This document shows positions 23,596 through 52,205 of a stretch of DNA of 64,000 nucleotides, one piece after another (positions within the stretch are counted from its first letter, which is position 1; the number at the start of each line of letters is the position of its first letter). The DNA is taken from assembly GCA_016930935.1 (NCBI GenBank), contig JAFGFT010000072.1:1-64000 (forward strand), read 5' to 3'. Source of the stretch: Dehalococcoidia bacterium. GTDB taxonomy: Bacteria > Chloroflexota > Dehalococcoidia > GIF9 > AB-539-J10. The notes under the pieces were generated by a model that was not told where the DNA came from, did not search any database, and saw nothing but the letters and a program-made list of their open reading frames with translations. The translations under genes and the position numbers were made by a program.

Positions 23596-23624
23596 TTGAC
23601 ATTCGTGAAGGAGGGAACTAGAAT
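23596..23624 (+). promoter_or_regulatory. Near-consensus promoter of the CetZ-like gene, predicted leaderless
   Basis: TTGACA (23596-23601) and TAGAAT (23619-23624) are separated by exactly 17 bases. Only six bases separate the -10 from the ATG at 23631, so transcription should begin at about the start codon. An AAGGAGGG inside the spacer is too far upstream to serve as a ribosome site and would not be in the transcript. Confidence 0.75.
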
Positions 23625-23630
23625 AACGAT

Positions 23631-24803
23631 ATGAAGCTGCTGGTGATAGGCTTGGGACAATGTGGTGGGCGGATTGCGGATAGATTCGCCCGCTTGAACA
23701 AGAGAGGACATGCGCTCCGTGGAATGGATACCCTTGCCGGAGTGTTTGCAATCAACACAGATGTGACGGACCTCAGTGGTCTGCGGACCATCAAGCCTGA
23801 TTACAGGCACCGCATTCTGATTGGCGCTCAGCGCACGAACGGTCACGGTGTGGGCAAGATCAGCGAGTTGGGAGCAGAGATAGCGAACGAGGATGTCGAC
23901 AAAGTAATCGATGCCATTCGTTCCGCTCCGGGCTTCTATGAAACGGATGCGTTCCTGCTCTGCGCCGGTGCTGCCGGCGGTACTGGTTCGGGTTCAATCG
24001 GCGTGTTGACGAAGCATCTCAAGGAGCGATACATCGGGAAGCCGGTGTACAACGTTGTGGTGCTGCCTTTCCGTCAGGAAGAGACGACCGAAACGAGGAC
24101 TATCTACAATACGGCGACATGTCTGAAGTCGACGTATCTTGTTGCTGATGCCGTGTTCCTGATTGATAATCAGCGCTATGTGAGGAAGGACGCCCCTGCT
24201 CAGAACAACCTCAACACAATCAATGCGAAGGTGGCTGAACCCTTCTATAATGTGTTGTGCGCAGGGGAGGAAACCAACCAACAGTTCGTTGGAGCGAAGA
24301 CACTTGATGCCGGAGACATCATTCAGACTCTGGCAGGGTGGACGGTCATTGGTGGTGGCATGTCACGCTTGGAGCGGAGACTGCCTTTCTGCGGTCCAAA
24401 ACGCGATTTCCGTGACAAGATGATGGAGACGAGTCGGGCTTCGCACGCCATGGACCAGGCCATTAGTGAACTGTCCATGACTATAGACCCGACGGATGCA
24501 GGAAGGGCGCTCTATCTGCTGACGGCTCCTGCTCGTGAGATGAGCATGGATGTCATGAAGCAGTTGGGTGACAACCTGAAGAACCTTGCACCAAACGCAC
24601 TCATCCGTAGCGGTGACTACCCTCGTGACAGCAAGCAGGTTGATGTGACGCTCGTGATGTCGGAGATTGGCAATGTGCGGAAGATAACCGACTACTTCAC
24701 CAAGGCAATCGACCTTATCTCTGTCATGAAGGCGAAGCGTGGACTTGGCTACCAGTCGAGGAAACTCGAAGAGTCATTCGACGAGATTCCTGTACTACTG
24801 TAG
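23631..24803 (+). CDS. CetZ-like tubulin-superfamily GTPase
   Basis: 390 residues. The N-terminal GTPase domain begins LLVIGLGQCGGRIAD (nucleotide-binding glycine loop), with FAINTD near 40, the ILIGAQRTNGHGVG segment at 62-75 followed by ELGAE, and the tubulin signature GGTGSGS at 116-122. The GHGVG...ELGAE segment matches archaeal CetZ proteins better than FtsZ. The FtsZ C-terminal conserved peptide (such as DVPSFLRR) is absent; the tail ends EESFDEIPVLL. A normal ftsZ exists at 49 kb, so this is a second tubulin homologue. CetZ proteins act in cell shape in archaea. Two coiled-coil rod proteins face it from the opposite strand. Confidence 0.88.
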   Translation: MKLLVIGLGQCGGRIADRFARLNKRGHALRGMDTLAGVFAINTDVTDLSGLRTIKPDYRHRILIGAQRTNGHGVGKISELGAEIANEDVDKVIDAIRSAPGFYETDAFLLCAGAAGGTGSGSIGVLTKHLKERYIGKPVYNVVVLPFRQEETTETRTIYNTATCLKSTYLVADAVFLIDNQRYVRKDAPAQNNLNTINAKVAEPFYNVLCAGEETNQQFVGAKTLDAGDIIQTLAGWTVIGGGMSRLERRLPFCGPKRDFRDKMMETSRASHAMDQAISELSMTIDPTDAGRALYLLTAPAREMSMDVMKQLGDNLKNLAPNALIRSGDYPRDSKQVDVTLVMSEIGNVRKITDYFTKAIDLISVMKAKRGLGYQSRKLEESFDEIPVLL

Positions 24804-24828
24804 CTGCTGTTCTTGAAGAATGTAATGA

Positions 24829-24863
24829 AGCTGCCCCCTGCTTTTTGGAAGCAAGGGGCAGCT
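24829..24863. terminator. Hairpin terminator between the tubulin and rod-protein genes
   Basis: AGCTGCCCCCTGC pairs with GCAAGGGGCAGCT across a 9-base loop, 12 of 13 pairs formed. It sits 26 bases after the tubulin stop and 40 bases after the stop of the opposing gene, so it may serve both strands. A short CTTTG follows on the plus strand, and no long T-run is present on either side. Confidence 0.75.
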
Positions 24864-24902
24864 CTTTGTGTCCATTGACTGGGATTGTCTTTGGACCGCT
24901 GC

Positions 24903-25448
24903 TTATCTGCGGGCCTTGGTGAAGACCGTCCACGTGCGGGCCATCGCCTCCGCATGGGCAACCCTGGCCTTCTTCTCGGCTTCGTCTCTTTCCTTCAGCG
25001 CTTGTGTGGAGGCTTCATCAAAGGACTTCTTCGCTGAAACCACGCTGTCTTCGTGCGCCTTGCGCAGTTGAGCGAGGCTTTCCTCGAAGACGCGCTGACT
25101 CTGCGCGGTGCCGTCGTCAAGGGCTTTCTTCGCCTGCGCGATAGTGGTGTCGTAATGCTTCCTTGCCTGAGCTATCGCATCGACGGAGGCATGGCGGGCA
25201 CGGTCGAGGGAATCAGAGTAGGCCTTCTCTGCCTTGTGTTCCTGGTCCTTGTAGGCGTTCTCAAGTTGGCGTTCCGCTTCAACATACGCAACGTACGCGG
25301 CAACCGCGCGTTGTTGAGTCTCATCCAGAAAATCCATGGTTGGCTCGGCCGGTTTCGCAGCCTGCGTTGTGTTGTTGGCCTGTGCGGTGTCATCAGCCTG
25401 CGTTGTGGTCTCTTTCTGCTTGACCGGTGCTTCTTCCACGTTTGCCAT
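24903..25448 (-). CDS. Rod-like protein of eleven consecutive 11-residue repeats
   Basis: 181 residues, not assigned to a known family. Residues 1-38 are a polar Thr/Gln/Ala-rich low-complexity tail. From Tyr55 to Val175 the sequence divides without gaps into eleven hendecads. Position 1 is often aromatic (Y55, Y66, Y77, Y99, F121, F143), position 3 is nearly always Asp or Glu, position 8 is mostly Ala, and positions 9-10 are often basic. It should form a continuous, slightly right-handed amphipathic helix or coiled coil. No signal peptide or membrane segment. The start at 25448 has AAAGGAGGG eight bases upstream. It lies 96 bases after the longer repeat protein, probably in the same transcript, and faces the CetZ-like gene. 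Confidence 0.8.
   Translation of the reverse strand: MANVEEAPVKQKETTTQADDTAQANNTTQAAKPAEPTMDFLDETQQRAVAAYVAYVEAERQLENAYKDQEHKAEKAYSDSLDRARHASVDAIAQARKHYDTTIAQAKKALDDGTAQSQRVFEESLAQLRKAHEDSVVSAKKSFDEASTQALKERDEAEKKARVAHAEAMARTWTVFTKARR
24924..25286 (-). repeat. Protein-level 11-residue tandem repeats (11 units)
   Basis: Codons 55-175 of the 181-residue rod protein encode eleven gapless hendecads. Units begin at residues 55, 66, 77, 88, 99, 110, 121, 132, 143, 154 and 165. An acidic residue is at unit position 3 in ten of eleven. The DNA copies are diverged, so the periodicity is selected at protein level. Confidence 0.8.
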
Positions 25449-25544: not shown

Positions 25545-27116
25545 CTAATCATAGTCGTCGTCTTTCTGGGCTTCAAGGGGTTTGTCTTTGTCCGTTGCGT
25601 ACATCTTGGCCAGGAATTTGAGCCTCGATTCTATGTCCCTCTTGGGCTCACGGGACCGGAGAGGTTGTCTTGACTCGTCCAGATCGACGCGGCTGAGAGC
25701 ATCTTCAAAGAGCTGTGAGGAAGGGGTTTCAAGCGGTTCCGGAGCCTCCTGGCTTAGCTTCTCTGCTCCTGCGACCGCATCCTCAAAAATACGTGCGGAG
25801 GCGCGCACTGCTTTGCGCGCGGCCTTGTTCGTCTCTTCAGCCTTCCTGAGTGCTTCCTGTAGAATCTTCACGGATGCGACGACCGTGTCTCGTGCGGCCG
25901 TAACGGACGACTCCGTGGCTTCCCTGACGACTCGTTTGGACTCTTCCGCCACTCGCACTGTCTCACGTTCGGTCTGCTCTGAGCGGCGAATCGCCTCGGC
26001 TGCCAGTCTCTGGGCCTCCTCCGCGGCTTCGGTCGCGAGCTTTCCAATCTCCTCCGTGCGGCTGGATGCCTCCTCCGTAGCTTTCATGGCATCCTCGGCC
26101 AGCCGCGTTGCGGCGGAACTGACCTGTTCGGTTCTTCTTATTGCCTCGCGTGATGCGCGTTCGGCTTCCTCTGCCTTGCCCATTGCTTCCTGAGAGGCGC
26201 GGGTGGCCGATTCTATTGCTTCGTTGCTCTCCCTCACGGAAGCCTCAATTCGAGCGAGCGCTTCCTGAGAGGCCCTGATTTGCTTGTTTGCCTCTCGCTG
26301 GCTGAGCTTGCCTGCCTCATCTGCACGCCGCAGTGCTGCTTCAAAAGCGCGGTTTGACTGCTCTGATGCTGCGTTGGATGCCGCGATGGCTTCCTCGGCG
26401 CGTGCGCGCGCCTCCTCAAATGCGGCTGAGGAAAGTGCGGCTGAATCGGAGGCTGATTGAAAGACTCGCTCGGCGCGGGCCACCGCTTTCTCTGATGCTT
26501 TCTGCGCGTCTCTTGATGCCTTCTCAGAGGAGCGCGCTACACGCTCCGCAGCGTTCTGTGCCTCTTGTGATGCTCTGACGGACTCTTCGGCGGCACGTAT
26601 CGCCTGGTCGCGTTGACTCTCTGCTTGAATCACGGATTGACGGGATGCCTGGCGGGCTTCTTCGGCTTTCTGCTGCGCTGCCTGTGCAGTCTTCTCCACC
26701 TGGGTGAAGAGTCTCTGTGAAGAACTGAGGGATTCCTCCACCGACTTGACCGCTTGGTTCACGAGTTGCTCAAGCCGTGCAACTGACTCATGAAATGACC
26801 GTGCGTTGTTCTGCGCGGCGGCGGTTGATGATTGGAGAGCAGCCTCGGCAGTATCGATGGCTGATTGGGCCATGCCTGTCGTCTTCTCGGAAGACTGTGC
26901 GGCCTTGTGGCTTAGCTGAGACGCCCTTTCCACTGCTTCTTCGGCTAGCCTTCTTGCCTCATCCGCAGAAGCACTTGCCTCGCGCCCGATGTTCTCAAGG
27001 CGCGTGATGGCGTTCTCTGATGCCTTGCGTGACTGTTCTGCTGCATGTCGCGCAGCCAGGTTCATCTGCTCGGCTCGTGCCACAGCCTCTTGGAAGGAAG
27101 GTGACTCGTTGTCCAT
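25545..27116 (-). CDS. Long alanine-rich rod protein with sixteen gapless 25-residue repeats
   Basis: 523 residues, unassigned. Residues 11-410 divide into sixteen 25-residue units with no gaps. Unit position 1 is Ala in thirteen of sixteen, position 6 is Glu or Asp in fifteen, position 4 is often Arg, and several units end RASQE. After residue 410 the phase shifts by 11, and two more units begin at 422 and 447. A 25-residue period equals two heptads plus one hendecad (7 turns), predicting a nearly straight coiled coil about 60 nm long if fully helical. The last 65 residues are non-repetitive, basic then acidic, with no membrane anchor. It is upstream of the hendecad protein and near the CetZ-like gene, so a cytoskeletal or chromosome-organising role is possible but unproven. 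Confidence 0.85.
   Translation of the reverse strand: MDNESPSFQEAVARAEQMNLAARHAAEQSRKASENAITRLENIGREASASADEARRLAEEAVERASQLSHKAAQSSEKTTGMAQSAIDTAEAALQSSTAAAQNNARSFHESVARLEQLVNQAVKSVEESLSSSQRLFTQVEKTAQAAQQKAEEARQASRQSVIQAESQRDQAIRAAEESVRASQEAQNAAERVARSSEKASRDAQKASEKAVARAERVFQSASDSAALSSAAFEEARARAEEAIAASNAASEQSNRAFEAALRRADEAGKLSQREANKQIRASQEALARIEASVRESNEAIESATRASQEAMGKAEEAERASREAIRRTEQVSSAATRLAEDAMKATEEASSRTEEIGKLATEAAEEAQRLAAEAIRRSEQTERETVRVAEESKRVVREATESSVTAARDTVVASVKILQEALRKAEETNKAARKAVRASARIFEDAVAGAEKLSQEAPEPLETPSSQLFEDALSRVDLDESRQPLRSREPKRDIESRLKFLAKMYATDKDKPLEAQKDDDYD
25887..27086 (-). repeat. Protein-level 25-residue tandem repeats (16 units)
   Basis: Codons 11-410 of the 523-residue rod protein. 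Units start at residues 11, 36, 61, 86 and so on to 386 in exact steps of 25 (75 bases). The anchor pattern is A-[VIL]-x-R-x-E at unit positions 1-6; only unit 3 has Ser in place of the acidic residue. The nucleotide copies are diverged. Confidence 0.85.
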
Positions 27117-27180: not shown

Positions 27181-27209
27181 ATTGTAGTAGTGCAGTTCTC
27201 TATTTTCAA
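27181..27209 (-). promoter_or_regulatory. Promoter of the rod-protein genes
   Basis: On the minus strand TTGAAA (27204-27209) and TACAAT (27181-27186) are 17 bases apart. The -35 overlaps the last bases of the upstream nitrilase-family gene. The predicted start site near 27174 gives a leader of about 58 bases. Confidence 0.65.
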
Positions 27210-48877: not shown

Positions 48878-50002
48878 CTATTGCCAGGAAAGCCGTGAAG
48901 GCTCGGGTTTCACATCTCCCCTCATAGCCTGTGTCAGTTGACCACTGCTGTGGTGCTGGCCGCGGCGCAGGAAGGAAGGTACATCGAGACTCTCGCCACC
49001 ACCCTTCATCAGCCGGCGCAGTTCCTCGGTGTCGGGTGAGCCCTTGCCGTACTGGCTCGTGAAGCCTGTCGCGATGACGGTTATCTTGATGTCCGCATCC
49101 ATCTTCGGGTCGAACACAACGCCGAAAATGATGTTGGCCCGTGGGTCAACCGCATCACTGATGACACTGGCTGCCTCGTTGCACTCGAAGAGCGTCAAAC
49201 TGGGTCCGCCGGTGATGTTGAACAGCACGCCCTTGGCTCCGGTAACCTGCGCGTCCAGAAGAGGACTGGCGAGTGCAGCCTTTGCCGCGTCGACTGCCCT
49301 GTTCTGGCCGGTGCCTCGTCCTACGGACATCCAGGCGGGGCCTGCGTTCCGCATGACGGATTTGATGTCTGCGAAGTCAAGGTTGATGAGGCCAGGGACT
49401 GTGACGACTTCGGAGATTGCCTGGACACCAAGGAGAAGGGCGTCGTCAGCCATCCTGAAAGCCGAGTCTACAGTGGTCTTGTTGTCACAGAGCTGAAGGA
49501 GTCTGTCATTCGGGATAATGATGAGTGTGTCTACCTTATCGGTTAGGTTGAGAATACCCTCTTCAGCTACCTCTGAGCGGTGTCCACCCTCGAATTTGAA
49601 GGGCTTGGTGACCACGCCGATGGTGAGAGCTCCAGACTCTTTGGCAATCTCAGCGACCACGGGGATGCCGCCGGTTCCGGTGCCGCCACCCATACCTGCG
49701 GCGACGAAAACCATGTCGGCTCCCTCTACGACTTCCTGAATCGTCTGTTTGCTCTCTTCTGCGGCTTTGCCACCTACTCTGTGGTCACCGCCGGCGCCAA
49801 GGCCGCGGGTGAGTTTCTCACCGAGCTGGACGCGGGTCGAAGCCTCGGCCAGTGCGAGAGCCTGGGCATCAGTGTTCATGACGATGAACTCGACGCCTCT
49901 GATATCCTCTCGGATCATTCGATTGATTGCGTTGGTGCCACCGCCCCCGATGCCGATCGCCTTGATCCTTGCCGGAGCGGGTGTATAAGTTGTCTTAGCC
50001 AT
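48878..50002 (-). CDS. ftsZ: Cell division protein FtsZ
   Basis: 374 residues. [15 protein letters not shown] (15-30) and the tubulin signature [11 protein letters not shown] near 110 bind GTP, and the T7 loop is intact ([12 protein letters not shown]). After a linker, the C-terminal conserved peptide DVPSFLRR is present at about 338-345, followed by about 24 further residues. It forms the division ring. It is 41 bases downstream of ftsA. Confidence 0.97.
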
Positions 50003-50043
50003 TTCTACCTCCTAAGTCTTTGCAACTTGTCGCCACTCTGCAG

Positions 50044-51270
50044 CTATCCATGGAAGAGCTTTCGCAACATTCGGGAAATACCGCCGAACATGCTGGTGCG
50101 CTTGCTCTGCCATGCGGAAGGCTCTCGGTTGCGTGCCTGCCACAGAATGAGTCCCAGCGTTGTCGCGTAAGCAGAGTCACGCAGGATGTCAGTGATTCCA
50201 TAGACGCCACTGCCAAGTGGCGCGCCCTTCCGAACGGGCATCTTGAGTTGGCCCTTGCCCAACTCAACCAATCCATCGAGGTTGGCTGTACCACCGGTGA
50301 GAACTAGCCCGCAGGGTGCGAGTCTCTGGTAGTCGGTGGTCGGCAGCTCCAGGAGAATCAACTCGTAGAGTTCCTCCATTCTTGAACGAACGATGTCGCA
50401 GAGTTCTCTGTACGAACCGGCGTGGCCGTTTTCAATGCCCGTCAGTTCTGTCTCTCTGCCGGTGTCAAGACCGGGAGTCACGTTGCCGTAGGTCTTCTTC
50501 ATTCGCTCCGCTACGTGGAACGGAAGGCCAAGGCCTATGGCGATGTCACTTGTTATCTGGTAGCCGGCGACCGGTATGATGGCTGTGTGGTAGATATCGC
50601 CATCCTTGAAGACGGCGATGTCTGTGGTGCCACCTCCGAGGTCGGCCATGATGATGCCGCTCTCGCGCTCTTGTGGGGTGAGGACTGCCTCGCCACTGGC
50701 CAGAGGCTCAAGGACCAGGTCTTCAACCTGTACCCCTATGCTTCTGATGACCTTCACCAGATTCTGGACTGAGGACACTGAGGCTGTGATGATGTGCGTC
50801 TCAACGTCGAGTCGCGTGCCGTGCATCCCCACGGGTTGCTTGACGCGCTCTTCTCCGTCGAGTGTGTAGTAGCGCGGGATTGCATGCAACAGCTTCTTGC
50901 CCTCAGGCACTGTCACACTCTTGGAGGCAGCAAGGACTCTTCGCAGGTCATCGGAACGAACGAGACGGTCGGCTCGTGGTATCGCTACCACTCCCTTGTT
51001 GTTAATGCTACTGATGTGTCGCCCAGTCACTCCGACGAATACCGAGTCGACGCGCGTCCCACTAATCTTCTGCGCTTCCTGGATCGACGTGGCGATTGCT
51101 TCCTTCGCCTCATCCATGTTGACGACGATTCCCTTGTGCAGCCCATGACTGGGCACAACGCCAACACCAAGAATCTCGATGTCGTCCTGACTCCTGACAT
51201 TCGCCACGATAGTGGCTATCTTTGTGGTTCCCACATCAATAGCGGAAATGATCCCTTTGGTCATTTTCAC
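50044..51270 (-). CDS. ftsA: Cell division protein FtsA
   Basis: 408 residues of the actin/Hsp70 fold. IISAIDVGTTKIATIV (8-23) is the phosphate 1 motif, IMADLGGGTTDIAVF near 205 the phosphate 2 motif, and VLTGGTANLDGL near 335 the adenosine motif. A C-terminal amphipathic helix (ISRMLRKLFHG) should anchor it to the membrane. It tethers FtsZ. It lies 38 bases after rsmH with no ftsL, ftsI or mur genes between, unlike walled bacteria. Confidence 0.96.
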   Translation of the reverse strand: MKMTKGIISAIDVGTTKIATIVANVRSQDDIEILGVGVVPSHGLHKGIVVNMDEAKEAIATSIQEAQKISGTRVDSVFVGVTGRHISSINNKGVVAIPRADRLVRSDDLRRVLAASKSVTVPEGKKLLHAIPRYYTLDGEERVKQPVGMHGTRLDVETHIITASVSSVQNLVKVIRSIGVQVEDLVLEPLASGEAVLTPQERESGIIMADLGGGTTDIAVFKDGDIYHTAIIPVAGYQITSDIAIGLGLPFHVAERMKKTYGNVTPGLDTGRETELTGIENGHAGSYRELCDIVRSRMEELYELILLELPTTDYQRLAPCGLVLTGGTANLDGLVELGKGQLKMPVRKGAPLGSGVYGITDILRDSAYATTLGLILWQARNREPSAWQSKRTSMFGGISRMLRKLFHG

Positions 51271-51308
51271 CTCCTAAGATTATGGTCGTCACTCGAACGC
51301 ACGTGTTC

Positions 51309-52205
51309 TCACGCGATACGTTCAGCAACTCGGAGTCGCGCACTGCGACTGCGTGGATTGGAGTGACTCTCCAACGTAGTAGGTCGGATGACCTTCTTCG
51401 TAATGAGCGCGAAGGCGTTGTCGGCGGCCTTCCCGCGCATGAACTGCTTCACGATGCGGTCTTCCAGAGAATGGTAGCTGAGCACAACCAGTCTGCCCTG
51501 TGAGCGTAGAAGGCTCACAGTCTGGTCTAGTCCCAGCGCAAGACTCTCGAGTTCCTTGTTGACCGCAATGCGAAGAGCCATGAATGTGCGGGTCGCAGGG
51601 TGGATTCTTCCACGCCTGTTCCCGAGGACCTGCTGCACCAGGTGCGCAAGTCGTAATGTGGACAGGATTGGCCGGTTCTGGACAATCCTGTGCGCGATTT
51701 GTCGAGAGTACCGTTCTTCACCGTACTCCCAGAGGATGCGAGCTATCTCTTGCTCGCTATAGCTATTGACGATGTCTGCAGCGCTCACCCCTTCATTTGT
51801 GTCAAAACGCATGTCGAGTGGAGCTTCACGCTGGAAGCTGAAACCGCGGTCCGCGGAATCCAGCTGCATCGAGGATATCCCGAGGTCGAAAAATATGCCG
51901 TCGGTTGAGTTGAAGCCCTTCTCGCGGCAGATTTCTCCGAGATGGGAGAAATTGCCCTGTGCGGCGGTGAAGGACTCACCGAATTCTGAGAGTGTCTTCT
52001 GTGCCAGTTCAATGGCCGAGGAGTCTGCGTCTATGCCGAGGAGGCGGCCCGATGGCTGAATCCGCTCAAGTATGGCACGAGAGTGTCCGCCTGCCCCCAA
52101 TGTGCAATCAACGTACGTGCCGCCCGGATGAGTCCGCAATCCTTCCATAACCTCAGTCACCATTACGGGGACATGGGGGGCCAGCGACTCTGTGTCGTTG
52201 CTCAA
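51309..52205 (-). CDS. rsmH: 16S rRNA (cytosine-1402 N4) methyltransferase
   Basis: About 298 residues. HVPVMVTEVMEGL starts the domain, DCTLGAGGHSRAIL is the SAM site, and RGFSFQREAPLDMRFD is the family signature near 125. The frame is open to 52271. The TTG at 52205 is preferred because it overlaps the mraZ stop as TTGA and has GGGAGGA just upstream. It methylates C1402 of 16S rRNA. Confidence 0.95.
   Translation of the reverse strand: MSNDTESLAPHVPVMVTEVMEGLRTHPGGTYVDCTLGAGGHSRAILERIQPSGRLLGIDADSSAIELAQKTLSEFGESFTAAQGNFSHLGEICREKGFNSTDGIFFDLGISSMQLDSADRGFSFQREAPLDMRFDTNEGVSAADIVNSYSEQEIARILWEYGEERYSRQIAHRIVQNRPILSTLRLAHLVQQVLGNRRGRIHPATRTFMALRIAVNKELESLALGLDQTVSLLRSQGRLVVLSYHSLEDRIVKQFMRGKAADNAFALITKKVIRPTTLESHSNPRSRSARLRVAERIA

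Follow-up and report, generated by a model that had tools for sequence, protein, structure and literature searches.

A hendecad-repeat protein of a Dehalococcoidia bacterium, encoded in a conserved set with a CetZ-like tubulin homologue and a 25-residue-repeat rod

The protein P0001, encoded in a 64,000-nucleotide stretch of DNA from a Dehalococcoidia bacterium (hereafter the window), consists largely of eleven contiguous 11-residue repeats. It is read here as a cytoplasmic hendecad coiled-coil rod that most likely serves, together with a second rod made of 25-residue repeats, as an accessory of a CetZ-type filament, a reading that is moderately favored. Its most informative property is its membership of a conserved set with the CetZ gene and the 25-mer rod, and the convergent CetZ gene, to which an earlier sequence-only reading makes no reference, is the main clue to its function. 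This arrangement is kept across the class and P0001 therefore probably belongs to a bacterial cytoskeleton of which little is known.

The hendecad repeat and its register

The gene of P0001 (181 residues) occupies positions 24903..25448 of the minus strand, stop codon included. Its ATG at 25448 is preceded by aaaggaggg, a good ribosome-binding site, and the homologues share the start region. Residues 1-39 (25332..25448, minus strand) constitute an N-terminus predicted to be disordered, with pLDDT values below 50 at residues 1-36 and a helix from residue 40. The eleven gapless repeats cover residues 55-175 (24924..25286, minus strand), exactly where a sequence-only reading had placed them, and the unit has the composition announced there: position 1 is often aromatic (six of eleven units: Y55, Y66, Y77, Y99, F121 and F143), position 3 is acidic in ten units and position 8 is Ala in seven. 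The protein ends with a conserved segment, RTW-x-[VI]-[FY]-T-K-x-[RK] (residues 171-181; 24906..24938, minus strand), whose W173 is invariant in 31/31 sequences.

The repeat is genuine and exceptionally regular. The self-similarity of residues 41-181, scored with BLOSUM62 against 2000 permutations, gave z values of 8.0, 7.0, 6.6, 5.3 and 4.6 at lags 11, 22, 33, 44 and 55, respectively, each of them reached by none of the 2000 shuffles; the highest z of any shuffle across all 60 lags was 4.67. The 11-residue periodicity noticed in the sequence is thus statistically significant. Hydrophobicity peaks at a period of 3.68 residues (11/3 = 3.667), where its power is 14.0 versus 0.1 at 3.5, and the period lies between 3.66 and 3.695 in 31/31 sequences of the hendecad family, the window's own included.

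The register was followed across homologues as the distance from an N-terminal AYxxY anchor to the last W-x-[IV]-[FY] anchor. This distance is 78, 89, 100, 111 or 122 residues in 31/31 sequences, values that all equal 1 modulo 11 but vary modulo 7; the first anchor patterns fitted 26/31 sequences and were widened to fit 31/31, then widened again for distant loci. Thirteen more loci, from other families of the class, could be tested and 12 of them keep a distance of 1 modulo 11, which brings the total to 43/44 testable loci at 11k+1 (k = 7-11). An in-frame stop cuts the ORF of L101, which was left out of this test, and L103, whose contig is identical to that of L037 in sequence and length, was counted once. 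The absence of register-breaking insertions, on which the sequence-only reading had staked its repeat, accordingly holds in all but one distant homologue, L094, which is out by 2 residues and contains an internal duplication. In this protein (L094:6223-6978, G317), it is the N-terminal part that is duplicated. One further candidate, G114/L089, matched the family profile at 6.9e-16 but was dropped from the counts because it lacks both anchors and the neighboring genes.

Mapped on a tree of the neighboring CetZ proteins (33 rows, quick method), the lengths require at least 9 changes, 8 of 9 in whole hendecads with only L094 off the grid. At a chance of 1/11 for each, 8/9 in-register changes have a binomial probability of 4e-8, a value that assumes independent changes and ignores repeat slippage. 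Slippage could itself account for the register if mutation proceeded by whole units in a gene that is a neutral neighbor of CetZ, with no structural selection. Repeats can recombine and every in-register change does involve whole units. However, 258 of the 281 hendecad units in the family are distinct sequences, so that unequal exchange would rarely be exact; an off-grid change, not of 11 residues, was seen once, and the adjacency to CetZ holds over many families despite changing flanks. Neutral slippage is consequently considered a quite improbable explanation.

Some homologues show particularities of their own. Two hendecad types (CEESIAQALKI and REEAEQQAxKx) alternate in some genera (L010, L011, L020-L022), which produces an apparent 22-residue super-repeat. 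In L102:6651-7322 (G408), a DUF2442 domain (Pfam E 1.4e-18) precedes the hendecad homologue in one fused protein, and neither a CetZ nor a 25-mer gene adjoins this fusion gene. The hendecad ORF is present in L035, L036, L039 and L052, where it is overlapped by longer antisense ORFs.

Composition and predicted structure of the rod

Published work on hendecads places their core at positions a, d and h, explains that a dimer requires small residues there, Ala above all, and describes a supercoiling close to zero (PMC9858780). In the P0001 family, position a is Tyr (46%), Arg (20%) or Cys (11%), position d is Ala, Ser or Thr (68%) and position h is Ala (65%), with large hydrophobic residues at e (49%), Ala (41%) or Val/Ile (29%) at k, acidic residues at c (76%) and basic residues at j (55%). 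The family therefore has the Ala-rich a, d, h core of dimeric hendecads, extended by e, with Arg also admitted at a, and it has the contiguous 11-residue period of about 3.67 residues per turn that characterizes hendecad coiled-coil proteins. AlphaFold2 models the single chain as one helix over residues 40-180 with block pLDDT values mostly of 96-98, although Ala/Glu/Lys-rich sequences readily give high-scoring single-helix models. Along with the hydrophobic period, this model agrees with the long amphipathic helix first deduced from the pure hendecads. The composition of P0001 suits a hendecad coiled-coil rod, and this is its likeliest structure.

Profile searches returned little for the rod. 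No Pfam family matched P0001 at E values up to 1, the 31 homologues gave scattered weak Pfam matches with no LEA model among them, and solved relatives sought in the PDB gave weak matches only, the best of which (E 0.011) is a designed helical bundle.

The sequence-only reading had compared the helix to membrane-surface and desiccation proteins, and neither comparison is borne out. A membrane-surface amphipathic helix of the apolipoprotein, synuclein or perilipin type could be built from strict 11-mers with one face carrying aromatics, as found here, and the stretch around residues 91-110, with a net charge of +3, scores best on the lipid-type measure (1.31). The repeats of P0001 as a whole, however, have a mean hydrophobicity of about 0, a moment of 0.30 and a net charge of -2, and their apolar face is narrow and Ala-rich. 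On a HeliQuest-type score, with its formula and thresholds of 0.68 and 1.34, 18% of the 18-residue windows exceed 0.68 and none exceeds 1.34, and the net charge ranges from -8 to +1 in all 31 homologues. A membrane-surface helix is thus an improbable reading. A stress protein (desiccation or salt) resembling LEA group 3, which would lack order until dried, would share the 11-residue repeats and the richness in Ala, Lys and Glu. Against it stand the absence of a Pfam match for P0001 and of LEA models in its homologues, the conserved Tyr and Trp residues, the confidently predicted helix and the constantly cytoskeletal neighbors, and this identity is regarded as very unlikely indeed.

Genomic partners and their conservation

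The gene convergent with that of P0001 encodes P0003, a CetZ-like tubulin homologue of 390 residues (23631..24803, plus strand). It matches Pfam Tubulin (9.7e-32; 111.2 bits for a cut-off of 33) and CetZ_C (9.6e-14; 51.7 bits for a cut-off of 21.6), and its residues 1-361 match PDB entry 4b46, a haloarchaeal CetZ, at E 9.8e-43. In its T7-loop D226-A-G-D229 (24306..24317, plus strand), both Asp residues are invariant in 12/12 sequences and D229 aligns with the catalytic E218 of 4b46, so that the catalytic acidic T7 position is kept. The C-terminal tail FDEIPVLL (24777..24800, plus strand) contains P387 and L389, invariant in 12/12. The window also encodes an ordinary FtsZ, whose tail is of the VPSFLRR type, next to FtsA at about 49300-51900 on the minus strand; P0003 is therefore an extra tubulin homologue and not the division FtsZ. 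A second CetZ-like paralogue lies on another contig of the same genome (L060:874-2049, G000:C65), where the short stretch around it contains no gene for a repeat rod. The named relatives of P0003 that are 88-92% identical come from metagenome-assembled Dehalococcoidia, which very probably places the window in this class. Sparse CetZ-like groups have been mentioned in Dehalococcoidia (PMC9871819).

A two-way terminator-like hairpin separates the two convergent genes (24828..24864, both strands), with RNA fold z values of -4.1 (plus) and -6.6 (minus) and none of 200 shuffles as good. Upstream of CetZ, a promoter-like TTGACA-17-TAGAAT (23596..23624, plus strand) matches the consensus at 11/12 positions, which is not proof of a promoter; since it ends 6 nt before the ATG, a leaderless transcript is possibly suggested. 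No RNA family was found near the locus.

The 25-residue-repeat protein P0002 (523 residues; 25545..27116, minus strand) is encoded upstream of P0001 in the same direction, across a 96 bp gap. Its repeat gives z = 12.6 at lag 25, which upholds the earlier claim of a 25-mer partner, here seen to be encoded in the same direction. A promoter-like TTGAAA-17-TACAAT precedes the gene (27181..27209, minus strand; consensus match 10/12, again not proof). P0002 has no Pfam match, and the 25-mer profile matches almost solely designed helical proteins, which was taken as an effect of composition. Its AlphaFold model is of low confidence (mean pLDDT 52) and is drawn on, cautiously, only for a short separate C-terminal helix (residues 492-510). 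This helix holds the motif RLxFLAxMY (residues 498-506; 25599..25625, minus strand), in which R498, L499 and L502 are invariant and M505 and Y506 nearly so among 19 sequences. In pairwise alignments of 25-mer proteins, the commonest indels of at least 7 residues measure 11, 25, 22 and 7 residues (80, 46, 26 and 24 of 322, from non-independent pairs).

The two rods had been supposed to have matched helical geometry. This was rejected, as their periods differ in every member tested: that of P0002 is 3.57 and that of its family 3.555-3.590 in 19/19 sequences, including L110, whose genome is a single contig of 1.5 Mb and belongs to another family, versus the 3.66-3.695 of all 31 hendecad proteins. 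As calculated from these periods, the geometries contrast, the hydrophobic seams diverging by 262 degrees over every 100 residues, so that the two rods cannot co-coil along their length.

Many families of the class have the hendecad and 25-mer genes convergent to CetZ while the other flanking genes change. Of the family's 52 genomes, exactly the 22 with a close hendecad homologue also have a CetZ of the P0003 type (21 complete and one, G017, partial); the gap between the two genes is 72-184 bp in 21/22, the genes of G017 lying on different contigs. In the wider class, 15 loci were compared (L090-L104, with L089 dropped). CetZ adjoins the hendecad gene in 13, L097 and L102 having none beside it, and the 25-mer gene adjoins in 13 as well, the contig of L103 ending on that side. 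All three genes are on one strand in L100, and beyond the 25-mer gene there is often another CetZ (L090, L091, L093, L095, L096 and L104). Across 393 genomes of the class, with CetZ called at E up to 1e-40, 33 have both hendecad protein and CetZ, 6 the hendecad protein only, 70 CetZ only and 284 neither, counts that are uncorrected for relatedness and come from genomes of varied completeness. The 25-mer was found in 37 of these 393 genomes, all with CetZ (relatedness again uncorrected), and beside CetZ in 34 of the 37 by visual comparison of coordinates; the others are G129, G373 and G408, and the two genes are about 1.1 kb apart in G345. At 20 CetZ loci that have no adjoining hendecad gene, second paralogues and a genome with its hendecad gene on another contig (G408) included, the 25-mer gene is next to CetZ in 4 and not in 16. 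In a sample of the phylum, 9/400 genomes matched the hendecad profile, G114 included.

One genus (g10) has lost the CetZ/25-mer arrangement and its hendecad gene is paired with a DivIVA-like gene. Neither a 25-mer gene nor a convergent CetZ is found at the five hendecad loci of this genus that were compared. A DivIVA-like coiled-coil gene instead follows the hendecad gene on the same strand in the 16/16 genomes with both (coordinates compared by eye). Its product matches Pfam DivIVA in 3/5 members at E up to 0.1 (best 2.8e-5, with 24.5 bits for a cut-off of 28) and, weakly, the DivIVA structure 7o39 (E 0.0013). The DivIVA-like proteins of this genus (L053-L057) have a conserved C-terminal region. 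CetZ is absent, at the cut-off given above, from 6 of the 39 hendecad-positive genomes of the class, all six from g10, and is therefore not obligatory for the hendecad protein. The DivIVA-like partner suggests in turn that the role of the rod is probably a general one in the cytoskeleton or a polar scaffold and not tied to CetZ only. Carried further, P0001 could be a rod that scaffolds the pole or the division site in general, with a DivIVA- or FilP-like role and a secondary link to CetZ, as the constancy of the g10 pair, the DivIVA matches and the six genomes devoid of CetZ would have it. Most other homologues nevertheless have retained CetZ and the 25-mer gene as neighbors, the DivIVA-like family recurs outside g10 in only 1/32 family genomes and weakly, and its Pfam score is under the curated cut-off. 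A scaffold of this kind is a rather unlikely alternative.

Proposed role and comparison with known systems

The preferred reading remains that of an accessory rod of a CetZ-type filament. At 1.5 A per residue, one P0001 helix of about 140 residues would be about 21 nm long, and it would probably assemble into a nearly straight coiled coil, two-stranded or higher, with an Ala-rich core; the N-terminus is predicted to be disordered, and the C-terminus, with its Trp and basic residues, is conserved. Together with the longer 25-mer rod, it would most likely act as a crosslinker, spacer or anchor of the predicted GTP-dependent filament of the CetZ encoded convergently. The repeat, its register among homologues, the differing period of the 25-mer rod, the kinship with CetZ and the conserved gene neighborhood are results of computation; we infer the oligomeric state, the CetZ binding and the structural role. 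Several findings count against this reading: CetZ is missing from the six g10 genomes, 70 of the 103 CetZ-positive genomes of the class have no detectable hendecad protein, L097 and L102 have no CetZ beside their hendecad gene, L094 is out of register, and the hendecad gene mostly converges with CetZ and is not co-transcribed with it. A more specific proposal is offered tentatively, as a possibility. Dehalococcoidia would have a dedicated tubulin-type cytoskeleton, in which a CetZ filament would work together with two rods made for the purpose and unlike in helical geometry, the hendecad one near-straight and the 25-mer one left-handed. The hendecad protein would be a quantized ruler, lengthened or shortened in evolution solely by whole 11-residue steps of about 1.65 nm, that spaces filaments from one another or from the envelope.

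The conserved gene set provides concrete candidate accessory proteins for a bacterial CetZ system. The two rod families also amount to a natural experiment on coiled-coil periods, with 3.57 and 3.67 residues per turn held apart over long divergence, and on rod length, since the hendecad rods change in whole hendecads.

Several known proteins invite comparison. LEA group 3 proteins and the 11-mers of apolipoproteins and synuclein have an 11-residue helical period, which P0001 shares, but its charge, hydrophobicity and context do not fit theirs. The stalks of rotary ATPases, i.e. the F-ATPase b subunit and the A/V-ATPase E-G stalks, are hendecad coiled coils (PMC6131620). P0001 resembles them weakly (NCBIfam E 0.12; PDB 9o19, E 0.32) and its 11.8 bits fall far below the cut-off of 220 for the b subunit. 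FilP and Scy are actinobacterial hendecad rods with an Ala-rich core tied to the cytoskeleton and to polar growth, and they have a DivIVA-like N-terminal motif, RGYDxxEVD (PMC9858780). In contrast, this motif is absent from P0001, which has a disordered N-terminus, no Pfam DivIVA match and a CetZ beside it. The hendecad protein is not itself a DivIVA, although a DivIVA-like gene is its partner in g10. In the accessible portions of the open-licence literature, hendecad and 25-mer rods of this kind are not described (PMC2875224, PMC9871819, PMC9858780 and PMC6131620 included), nor was a partner of the Dehalococcoidia CetZ-like proteins found there (PMC9871819 included). A last comparison is with the CetZ tubulin homologues themselves (4b46 and 4b45). 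P0003 is like them in its match to 4b46 and in its CetZ_C domain and differs in being bacterial and accompanied by two repeat rods, which the accessible text on the Dehalococcoidia CetZ-like proteins does not mention (PMC9871819).
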